Assembly: GCF_012926505.1 (NCBI RefSeq)
Contig: NZ_JABBNT010000002.1
Span: 682,001-746,000 of the forward strand
Source: Pacificispira spongiicola
Lineage (GTDB): Bacteria; Pseudomonadota; Alphaproteobacteria; UBA8366; Aestuariispiraceae
DNA: 64,000 bases
Reading direction: 5' to 3'
Shown here: positions 3,238 through 59,591 of the stretch, one piece after another
Numbering within the stretch: position 1 is the first letter of the stretch
How the letters are laid out: each line of letters begins with the position of its first letter
Made by a program: the position numbers and the translations under genes
The notes under the pieces: generated by a model
Databases searched by the model: none
Seen by the model: the letters and a program-made list of their open reading frames with translations, nothing else
What the model was told of the DNA's origin: nothing

Positions 3238-5021
3238 TCGGACCGTTCAGAAGAACGCGCCGGCCAAAACCGCCGGAACTCTATTCCCCCCGCAGCAAAC
3301 CGGGCGGCGACCGCCGCCCGGTGTTGAACTGCGCGCCGACCCGCACCGACGGAACGTTCCGCCGCGCCATCGAAACCGGGCGGTCCCGCCTGTTGATCAC
3401 CGGCGCCGTGATGAGCTTCGCCTTCGTCGCGGTGGGTCTGCGTCTGGTCGATCTGGCGGCCTTCGCCTCCCCGACCGCGACCAGCGCGCCGATGCATGCC
3501 GAAACCGCCTACCGCATGCATACCGACCGCGCGACGATCACCGACCGCAACGGCGTCATCGTGGCGACCAGCCTGACGACGACGTCGCTGGCCGCGCGCC
3601 CGGACCGGATGCTCGATCCCGTCGACGCCGCGCGTAAGCTGGCGCAGGTTTTCCCGGAACTGGACCCGGCCGAATTGACGGCCAAGCTGACCTCCGGCTC
3701 CCCCTTCGTCTACATCCATCGCAAGGTCACGCCGAAGATGGAACAGGCGGTGATGGAACTGGGCATCCCCGGCCTGGAATTCGAACGCGACGAAACCCGC
3801 GTTTATCCGCACGGCCCGCTAATGGCGCATGTCCTGGGCTTCACCGATGTCGACGGGCGCGGCCTCGCCGGAATCGAACAGGGCATGGAATCGGTCCTGA
3901 AAGGCAGCGACGATCCGCTGCGCCTGTCCATCGACGTCCGGTTCCAGCACGCCGCCCATCAGGAACTGAAGAAAGCCATCGACACCTATAGCGCCATCGG
4001 CGGCGCTGCGCTGGTCACGGACGTTCGTACCGGCGAGATCCTGGCCATGGTGTCGATGCCCGATTTCGACCCGAACCATCCTGCGGACTCGCCCGCCGTG
4101 AACCGCTTCAACCGGGCGACGTTCGGGACTTACGAACTGGGTTCCACCTTCAAGATCTTCAACACGGCGATGGCGCTGGACAGCGGCGTCACCACGCTGG
4201 CCGACGGGTATGACGCCAGCGAACCCATCCGCATCAGCCGGTTCACGATCAACGATTACCACGCGAAGAACCGGTTCCTGACGGTGCCGGAAATCTTCAT
4301 TTACAGCTCCAATATCGGCTCCGCCAAAATGGCGCTGGATGTCGGCCCGCCCGCGCAGAAGGCGTTCATGGAACGCCTGGGCATGTTGCAGCCGATCGCG
4401 CTGGAAATCCCGGAAACCGGGCGTCCGCAATATCCGGATGTTTGGGCGCCGATCTATACGATGACTATTTCCTATGGCCATGGCCTGTCCGTGACGCCGC
4501 TGCATCTGGCCGAAGGCGTCGGCGCGATGCTGAACGGCGGGATGCTGATGCCGGCGACGCTGCTGGCCCGCGATAACGTGCCGACCGGGCGTCGCGTCGT
4601 GTCCGAACAGGTTAGCTACGACATGCGCCGCCTGATGCGTCTGAACGCCGTTTACGGGTCGGGCAAGGCCGCCCAGGTCAACGGGCTGATGGTCGGCGGC
4701 AAGACCGGAACAGCGGAAAAACCGGGCGGCAGCAAGGGGTATAACCGCCGCTCGCTGATTTCCTCCTTCGTCGCGGCCTTCCCAATGACCGATCCGCGCT
4801 ATGTCGTCTATGTCGTTTTGGACGAACCGCAGGGAACGAAGGAAACCTACGGCTATGCCACCGGCGGTTGGGTCGCGGCCCCGGCGGCCGGAGCGATCGT
4901 CGAACGGATTGCCGGAATCGCCGGAATCGCGCCGATAGAAGAGAACGCGCCCGAGATTCAGCACGCCTTTGCCATAGATCTGCCGGAGGAAACGAAGAAG
5001 CTCGCCTCGCTGCGTCAATAG
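3234..5021 (+). CDS. ftsI: Septal peptidoglycan transpeptidase FtsI (PBP3)
   Basis: This class B penicillin-binding protein of 595 residues crosslinks septal peptidoglycan. It has a basic cytoplasmic N-terminus, one membrane segment at about residues 52-74, a pedestal domain, and a transpeptidase domain with all three active-site motifs: STFK (nucleophile S304, K307), SSN (358-360) and KTGT (K490). The ATG at 3234 overlaps the ftsL stop. The cytoplasmic tail is unusually rich in R and P before the membrane anchor, as often seen in alphaproteobacteria. It works with FtsW, encoded downstream. Confidence 0.96.
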   Translation: MIGPFRRTRRPKPPELYSPRSKPGGDRRPVLNCAPTRTDGTFRRAIETGRSRLLITGAVMSFAFVAVGLRLVDLAAFASPTATSAPMHAETAYRMHTDRATITDRNGVIVATSLTTTSLAARPDRMLDPVDAARKLAQVFPELDPAELTAKLTSGSPFVYIHRKVTPKMEQAVMELGIPGLEFERDETRVYPHGPLMAHVLGFTDVDGRGLAGIEQGMESVLKGSDDPLRLSIDVRFQHAAHQELKKAIDTYSAIGGAALVTDVRTGEILAMVSMPDFDPNHPADSPAVNRFNRATFGTYELGSTFKIFNTAMALDSGVTTLADGYDASEPIRISRFTINDYHAKNRFLTVPEIFIYSSNIGSAKMALDVGPPAQKAFMERLGMLQPIALEIPETGRPQYPDVWAPIYTMTISYGHGLSVTPLHLAEGVGAMLNGGMLMPATLLARDNVPTGRRVVSEQVSYDMRRLMRLNAVYGSGKAAQVNGLMVGGKTGTAEKPGGSKGYNRRSLISSFVAAFPMTDPRYVVYVVLDEPQGTKETYGYATGGWVAAPAAGAIVERIAGIAGIAPIEENAPEIQHAFAIDLPEETKKLASLRQ

Positions 5022-42216: not shown

Positions 42217-42280
42217 GCGCGGTTGAGAGGACTGCCTTCGCAGTTCGCCGAGACAGGTTCTCGCTCGGCCGCCTTTTTTA
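42217..42280 (+). ncRNA. Candidate small RNA or transcription attenuator
   Basis: From the expected start point about 62 bases hold two hairpins: ACTGC (42231-42235) / GCAGT (42240-42244) with loop CTTC, and GCCGAG (42247-42252) / CTCGGC (42264-42269), followed by CGCC and six T. The second stem can alternatively form CGAGA/TCTCG inside it. With its own promoter and an intrinsic terminator this looks like a short stable RNA, or an attenuated leader of the DUF3800 gene that begins 31 bases later. A third reading is a plain terminator of the MFS gene. Confidence 0.55.
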
Positions 42281-42311: not shown

Positions 42312-43064
42312 TTGTACGTCTTATACCTTGATGATGCCGGTTCTGTAAAAAATTCATCAGACAAGTACTTTGTTCTGGGCGGTATCGCTATTTTTGAGCG
42401 GCAAATCCACTATCTCTCAGAGGAGATGGAAAAAGTTGCGGTCCGCACGGGACATCCTAACCCCCAAAACATTGAGTTGCATGGCAATGAGATCTTCTCG
42501 GGACGCGGATGGTGGCGCAGTATCGCAAACAAAAAAAGACGCCGGCAATTCATTCACGACGCGCTCTACAGCGTCAACTTACTCCGAGGGGATTGGGCCT
42601 TATTCGGCGTAGCGGTTAACAAACAAGACGTTTCTCCCAAAGACCCTATCGAAGTAGCGTTTGAGCAAATATGTAGCCGCTTCGACCTATATCTTGGCCG
42701 AATGTACAAGAACTATAATAACCCACAGCGCGGCATGATTGTTTTTGATAAATCGACGAGAGAAACTAGACTGCAAACTCTTGCCACAGAATTTAGGCGT
42801 AGCGGCCACAGCTGGGGGAAACTGCATAATCTAGCAGATGTTCCACTGTTTGTAGATTCTCGAGCCACACGGAGCGTGCAATATGCCGATCTTGTTGCTT
42901 ATTCGATCCGTCGATATTTCGAAGCACACGACACTTCGTTTCTTGATCCAATAAAGCGCCATTTTGACAACGAAGGAGGCACCCTTCACGGCTTAGTGCA
43001 CGTCCGAAAAAATGAAGGTGTTTGCCCATGTCTTGCTTGCAACCCAAGTTTTTTGGGTAAATAG
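42312..43064 (+). CDS. DUF3800 domain protein
   Basis: This 250-residue protein begins MYVLYLDDAGSVKN, the conserved acidic start of DUF3800, and continues with the family's ELHGNEIF and the late SVQYADLVAYSIRR with a second Asp. These acidic residues suggest a nuclease-like metal site, which is an inference. Family members often sit in mobile or defence regions. Codon use is visibly less GC-rich than the neighbours, suggesting acquisition between the MFS gene and the suf operon. The start is a TTG without a clear ribosome binding site. It ends with CPCLACN and converges on sufA with a 3-base gap. Confidence 0.8.
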   Translation: MYVLYLDDAGSVKNSSDKYFVLGGIAIFERQIHYLSEEMEKVAVRTGHPNPQNIELHGNEIFSGRGWWRSIANKKRRRQFIHDALYSVNLLRGDWALFGVAVNKQDVSPKDPIEVAFEQICSRFDLYLGRMYKNYNNPQRGMIVFDKSTRETRLQTLATEFRRSGHSWGKLHNLADVPLFVDSRATRSVQYADLVAYSIRRYFEAHDTSFLDPIKRHFDNEGGTLHGLVHVRKNEGVCPCLACNPSFLGK

Positions 43065-58525: not shown

Positions 58526-58667
58526 GGAAATTACCTTCGGTAAATTCAGACTATTTCTAAAACTAGATTAAGAAGGGTTTTATCTCTTCAATATCCTTTA
58601 GCAAATCTGACATCTGTGCGATCGATTTTTGCCGAGTATCTCCTTAATCCGCGTGAATTTTAGAGGC

Positions 58668-58696
58668 TTGAGAAATGAATGAACCAGACATATCGT
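58668..58696 (+). promoter_or_regulatory. Promoter ahead of the Abi-like gene
   Basis: TTGAGA (58668-58673) and TATCGT (58691-58696) are spaced by 17 bases in AT-rich DNA, about 45 bases before the small ORF start. The surrounding gap 58526-58741 has no other feature that I can support. Confidence 0.5.
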
Positions 58697-58741
58697 TTAA
58701 CTTGTTATATATCAAAATAATTACGTTTAGGGAGATCACGG

Positions 58742-58876
58742 ATGACTTCAGAAAACCAAAAAAAGTACGTATGGCGATACTTTTTGGCTTCGGCAGCGAT
58801 AATCACAGCCATCATACTCGGTTACACAATTTATATTTTTTGTAAGTCAGATAGTTTTTCAAGCAAAACAATGTAA
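58742..58876 (+). CDS. Small membrane ORF, 5' part of the interrupted Abi-like gene
   Basis: This 44-codon ORF starts with ATG 6 bases after GGAG. It encodes a basic start (MTSENQKKYVWRY), one membrane segment (FLASAAIITAIILGYTIYIF) and a short polar tail, and ends ATG-TAA at 58871-58876. The following frame (58886-59584) is in the same phase and continues the expected family N-terminus without a gap. The simplest reading is a two-helix membrane protein split by a single stop codon. A genuine separate small protein with coupled translation is the alternative. Confidence 0.6.
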   Translation: MTSENQKKYVWRYFLASAAIITAIILGYTIYIFCKSDSFSSKTM

Positions 58877-58885
58877 ATATTTGGA

Positions 58886-59584
58886 TTGTTTGGAGATAGT
58901 TTCGGTATATTAACCTCTTTATTTTCTGGATTAGCCTTTGTAGGAATAATAGCAACCATACTATTACAAAAAAATGAACTAGAGCTACAAAGAGACGAAC
59001 TTTCCTTAACCAGAAAGGAAATATCAATACAAAATGAGACCTTAAAAAAACAGCTTTTCGAAAACACGTTCTTTCAATTAATCAGAACCTTAAATGAAAT
59101 TGTCTCTTCTCTTGACTTGCAGAAGAGCACCTCCTCACGCACAACTATATCGACCGGAAGGGACTGCTTTATCATATTTTACCGTTCCTTAGAAAACGCT
59201 ATACAAGAAAAAGATTCTCGAGGAAAACCAAGCGGACGGCACCCCAAAATTCTCGAAATAATAAATGACCGGTATGTAATTTTTTACAAGAATCACAACC
59301 AAGACCTAGGTCATTATTTTCGACTAATGTACAGAATATTCTTATACATAGATAACTCCGAGGAGATAAATAAGTTATTTTATGCAAAAATATTGCGTTC
59401 TCAAATAAGCGACTATGAACTGGCAATACTATTCTATAATGGAATTTCAGAAAATGGCAGAAATAAGTTTAAACCACTGATTGAGAAATACAGTCTGTTC
59501 GACAATCTTCCAGAGTCGTTAATTTTCGACAAATCGCATAAGCAATTTTATGATGAAATAGCATTTGGTGTTAAAGAAAAATAA
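58886..59584 (+). CDS. Putative phage abortive infection protein (AbiC-like), 3' part
   Basis: This 232-residue frame begins with TTG and reads MFGDSFGILTSLFSGLAFVGIIATILLQKNELELQRDELSLTRKEI, the membrane segment plus charged coil that opens the putative AbiC family. It continues with FFQLIRTLNEIVSSL, LGHYFRLMYRIFLYI and LYNGISENG-like FYNGISENGRNKFKPLIEKYSLFDNLP, all typical of that family. The composition is strongly AT-rich, unlike every neighbour, so it was probably acquired. Its true N-terminus is likely the 58742 ORF, separated only by an in-frame TAA. It may be a recent pseudogene. Confidence 0.65.
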   Translation: MFGDSFGILTSLFSGLAFVGIIATILLQKNELELQRDELSLTRKEISIQNETLKKQLFENTFFQLIRTLNEIVSSLDLQKSTSSRTTISTGRDCFIIFYRSLENAIQEKDSRGKPSGRHPKILEIINDRYVIFYKNHNQDLGHYFRLMYRIFLYIDNSEEINKLFYAKILRSQISDYELAILFYNGISENGRNKFKPLIEKYSLFDNLPESLIFDKSHKQFYDEIAFGVKEK

Positions 59585-59591
59585 TGAAGGA

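Follow-up and report, generated by a model that had tools for sequence, protein, structure and literature searches.

A single in-frame stop codon splits a putative AbiP-like abortive-infection gene on an AT-rich islet of Pacificispira spongiicola

The lactococcal abortive infection protein AbiP is anchored by one N-terminal helix. Phage resistance, membrane anchoring and nucleic-acid binding are reported for it in PMC10127798 (citing Domingues 2008). The Pfam family PF16872 (putAbiC, putative phage abortive infection protein) resembles AbiP in profile, with matches in 15 of the 15 family proteins of our alignment A2, and is likewise predicted to be membrane-anchored, although it carries two hydrophobic segments instead of a single helix. 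Literature searches retrieved no paper dealing with PF16872 by name, or linking this family to integrons. Here we describe a member of PF16872 from P. spongiicola, located in a stretch of 64,000 nt that we analyzed as a whole (the window). It displays the order typical of the family, namely two hydrophobic segments, an FGDSFG motif, a long helix and a C-terminal domain, but, unlike the 42 homologous loci examined, it is split by a TAA codon between the hydrophobic segments. The relevant features are:

58530–59590, unstranded: AT-rich islet (ca. 33% G+C) with a single gene, flanked by a cupin gene and a marR-type gene; delimited by composition profile and undetected in five congeneric genomes.
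58730–58735, + strand: Shine-Dalgarno-like GGGAGA, 5′ of the ATG at 58742 (anti-SD pairing of −7.9 kcal/mol, spacing 6).
58742–58876, + strand: upstream fragment, whose 44 codons include the first hydrophobic segment and run up to the in-frame TAA (frame reading, hydrophobicity).
58853–58898, + strand: RNA hairpin covering the TAA and TTG, which folds more strongly than any other local segment of the islet; not conserved against synonymous shuffles.
58874–58876, + strand: in-frame TAA, in the linker separating the two hydrophobic segments; no homolog has a stop there.
58877–58885, + strand: codons for I, F and G between the TAA and the TTG, with G in a family-conserved column of the homolog alignment.
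58886–59584, + strand: TTG-started downstream fragment of 232 aa with the FGDSFG motif, second hydrophobic segment, long helix and PF16872 domain (frame, Pfam and structural model).

A single phase runs from the ATG at 58742 to the TAA at 59582–59584, broken only by the TAA at 58874–58876: 44 sense codons precede this stop, which is followed by ATA TTT GGA TTG and by a total of 235 sense codons up to the terminal stop. With the base composition of the islet, a stop-free run of 235 codons has a chance probability of around 1e-8; because of this, and of a match of 78 bits to PF16872, the downstream frame is not a chance ORF. No overlapping ORF in another phase crosses the stop, and a frameshift bridge around it was discarded. 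The initial annotation had placed the 44-codon ORF and the downstream frame in the same phase, as frame reading confirms, and had predicted that a single base change would restore a protein of about 280 residues with two membrane helices. The read-through product does contain two hydrophobic segments, in windows that begin at residues 15 and 56, in agreement with the architecture of the family.

The product deduced from the TTG (TTG form) matched PF16872 with 78.1 bits (E 7e-22), well over the curated Pfam cut-off of 22 bits, and the PADLOC model for AbiP (PDLC02351), for which the library gives no curated cut-off, with E 1.4e-13 over 160 residues (42–201). The match to the PADLOC model for AbiC (PDLC02343) was far weaker, with E 0.004 for the TTG form and E 0.0016 (16 bits, a weak full-length match) for the read-through product, and about half of the homologs match AbiC. 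For this protein, which the initial annotation had described as AbiC-like, AbiP is the nearer of the two PADLOC models, although the domain bears the name putAbiC in Pfam. The closest relatives show around 45% identity at best. A profile match to FADD (E 0.02) was weak and taken as due to chance.

A profile built from 23 homologs, leaving out the query, scored the read-through product at 291.7 bits, the frame from just after the TAA at 281.8 bits and the TTG form at 277.0 bits. The codons between the TAA and the TTG, which had been proposed to continue the N-terminus of the family, do so: adding them raises the score of the TTG form, and their Gly is conserved in 20 of the 23 homologs. The first 60 residues alone reached 25.3 bits (E 2e-9), and the 44-codon ORF alone just 3.1 bits (E 0.01); because of this low score, the upstream ORF appears tied to the family mainly by its phase, position and hydrophobicity, together with the conserved codons right after the TAA. 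Low similarity of this kind is usual in first transmembrane helices. The TTG form matches phrog_8999 (PHROG 8999, 270 positions) only from position 45, as would be expected from the loss of the first 44 positions. The parts of the two-segment architecture with its FGDxFG linker are thus in one phase and broken by the TAA, and, as judged from sequence, membership of PF16872 by descent holds but the intact protein does not.

Homologs were gathered from plasmids, phages, whole genomes and viral contigs, extending the frames upstream of each match. In all 42 homologous loci, many of them on viral contigs and including some close pairs, the first hydrophobic segment, the linker, the FGDSFG motif and the second hydrophobic segment follow one another in a single open frame. 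None of these 42 loci showed a two-gene arrangement, a stop in the linker or the loss of the first hydrophobic segment. The only other copy flagged with a stop (L049) has an unbroken frame from the N-terminal segment via the linker through the conserved C-terminal domain, and when 369, 78 and 43 genomes were screened with a full-length profile, no second linker-broken copy turned up. Since no two-gene arrangement occurs among the 42 loci, the family consists of one protein, of which the window copy is a split version; this rules out a two-protein family and upholds the split-gene reading of the initial annotation.

Two further observations arose from the homologs. In five loci (L050, L051, L053, L058, and L070) the N-terminal module, i.e., the hydrophobic segment, FGDSFG and the second hydrophobic segment, precedes quite different C-terminal parts, which suggests that it may be an exchangeable membrane module. 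Additionally, a homolog from a Falsirhodobacter plasmid (L011, 2776–3657) is annotated as a 134 aa product starting at 3253, yet the frame of the family is already open at 2776, and its start is apparently mis-annotated.

The window copy differs from the family majority in 4 of 39 well-conserved columns, mostly by residues found in relatives or by conservative changes, and we found no second stop or frameshift in its 280 codons. Under neutral drift, three nonsense hits are expected once ca. 0.06–0.09 substitutions per site have accumulated, or earlier with frameshifts included. The near-complete retention of the conserved residues and the lack of a second lesion argue for a recent stop; by itself, the lack of a second lesion could mean that the break is recent, that the downstream part is still under selection, or that the base is a sequencing error. 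In this last case, the real chromosome would carry a sense codon, for which a single base suffices, and the gene is indeed otherwise undamaged. Nevertheless, the neighboring genes on both sides, including an ORF of 1208 aa, are full-length and without frame defects, and the assembly is of good quality, with 19 contigs, 97.85% completeness and 0 contamination, so that an error of sequencing or assembly is improbable. Consensus substitution errors are rare. We therefore favor, with a probability of roughly 0.73, that this two-pass, membrane-anchored and AbiP-like member of PF16872 was horizontally acquired and recently inactivated by one nonsense mutation. Out of the four options initially offered, a decaying defense gene is the best supported. 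There is a single in-frame TAA, the family is otherwise continuous, and the gene carries no other lesion.

AlphaFold2 predicted, for the downstream part (mean pLDDT 86), that the second hydrophobic segment continues into a long helix followed by an all-helical C-terminal domain. Compared with the PDB and with models of viral proteins, Foldseek gave no match under E 0.1 for this model, and the best VIA match (Z 5.7) is in the range of common helical arrangements. The intact protein would be inserted in the inner membrane, its C-terminal domain facing the cytoplasm. By analogy with lactococcal AbiP, intact members of the family probably abort phage infection by means of a helical domain, a cytoplasmic effector or nucleic-acid binder, that is anchored at the inner membrane; as AbiP is the best-described relative by profile, our leading guess is an abortive-infection effector tethered to the membrane. 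In the window copy, ribosomes starting at the ATG at 58742 would stop after 44 residues and release a one-helix peptide of no use, and the cytoplasmic domain would then be made poorly or not at all through inefficient reinitiation, because the TTG at 58886 is almost devoid of a ribosome-binding site (a weak SD match abutting the start codon, −2.4 kcal/mol).

Alternatively, reinitiation at this TTG might allow the downstream frame to be translated independently, into a working short form with a single helix, as in AbiP. The TTG is only nine bases after the TAA, near enough for termination-reinitiation, and the 232-aa frame is free of further lesions and keeps the motif, the second helix and the PF16872 domain; furthermore, AbiP itself is described in PMC10127798 (citing Domingues 2008) as a membrane-anchored protein that combines a transmembrane domain with one for nucleic-acid binding. 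However, all the homologs retain the first hydrophobic segment, the TTG has almost no SD, and the codons directly 5′ of it are still family-like, all of which make this short form unlikely. It is more doubtful still that the TAA is retained for a purpose, in such a way that the level of a short AbiP-like effector with a single helix would be set, upon reinitiation at the TTG, by the stop-spanning hairpin and the 44-residue leader; if true, a two-pass anchored defense protein would have been turned into a translationally throttled, AbiP-like form.

The hairpin could also be a signal for programmed readthrough or recoding at the TAA, allowing the synthesis of some full-length protein. Its z-score was −3.2 against dinucleotide shuffles and −2.2 against synonymous shuffles, but it was found after the fact, and the same place in 37 homologs without the stop folds similarly (mean z −0.35, s.e. 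0.20, synonymous shuffles). The hairpin is thus poor evidence for programmed readthrough, because stop-less homologs fold in a similar way and synonymous shuffles largely reproduce it; it is probably coincidental and mostly a by-product of coding content, and we discarded it as a recoding hairpin. Additionally, the gene itself likewise ends in TAA and no homolog has a stop at that site. With no conserved signal, the readthrough option of the initial annotation found no backing, and we regard it as very improbable.

Abortive-infection genes can be costly, and off states are plausible in principle, so that the stop could also represent a phase-variable off state. However, the site lacks simple repeats, which rules out a simple-repeat phase switch, as well as any invertible element or recombination partner, and the genome has no second copy of the gene. 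The change is a point nonsense codon, and the phase-like off state considered at first is hardly credible.

A recent nonsense mutation in an acquired gene, the reading that we prefer, also has to be considered in its genomic setting. The islet spans ca. 1 kb, with around 33% G+C against around 62% in its surroundings, and neither it nor any homolog of its gene was detected in five other genomes of the genus; we interpret the gene as horizontally acquired, on a single-gene islet. The marR gene is conserved across sister species, the adjoining content varies, and the rearrangement of this neighborhood in sister species left no clean empty-site junction to be drawn. In a sister species, the marR-tyrS interval (L039, 3677–6097) contains other AT-rich genes, coding for GmrSD N-terminal and RiboL-PSP-HEPN domains, beside a transposase of the IS1595 type; the interval could repeatedly serve as a site for defense-like genes.

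Homologs elsewhere ride on mobile elements, including an inovirus, Vibrio arrays and viral contigs. The homologs from inovirus vB_VipaK (L043) and from one Vibrio array (L009) show 40–42% identity to the window copy, and that from a second array (L044) around 27%; all three are solitary genes, like the window copy. Nevertheless, they are intact and on mobile elements or cassette-like arrays, whereas the window copy is broken and its surroundings yielded no mobile-element ends. The two Vibrio arrays resemble integron cassette arrays, as suggested by small genes on the same strand, DUF3265 genes and GCGTTATG-type junctions 5′ of the start. An integron cassette was discarded for the window, where matches to GTTRRRY are below chance and those near the islet, 58156 (+) and 58695 (−), have no paired site; no close DNA relatives were found on plasmids. 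The homolog of the filamentous Vibrio phage vB_VipaK (L043, 2878–3726) is intact and annotated as hypothetical, and could be a superinfection-exclusion gene.

Most likely, then, the window copy is a fresh nonsense allele, or ordinary pseudogene, and not a new kind of system; it belongs to a known family that is horizontally mobile and defense-like. It provides a further example that solitary defense-like genes reach AT-rich islets and can be lost by point mutation soon afterwards. It is also a warning for annotators, because automatic annotation would take the 232-aa TTG frame as a complete abortive infection protein, when comparison with the family indicates that its first membrane segment has been cut off.

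Elsewhere in the window, positions 42220–42271 (+) matched the Rfam family RF02915 (DUF3800-VI RNA; 51.9 bits), directly 5′ of an ORF that starts at a TTG and contains a DUF3800 domain (42312–43064, +), a regular pairing of this RNA motif and its associated gene.
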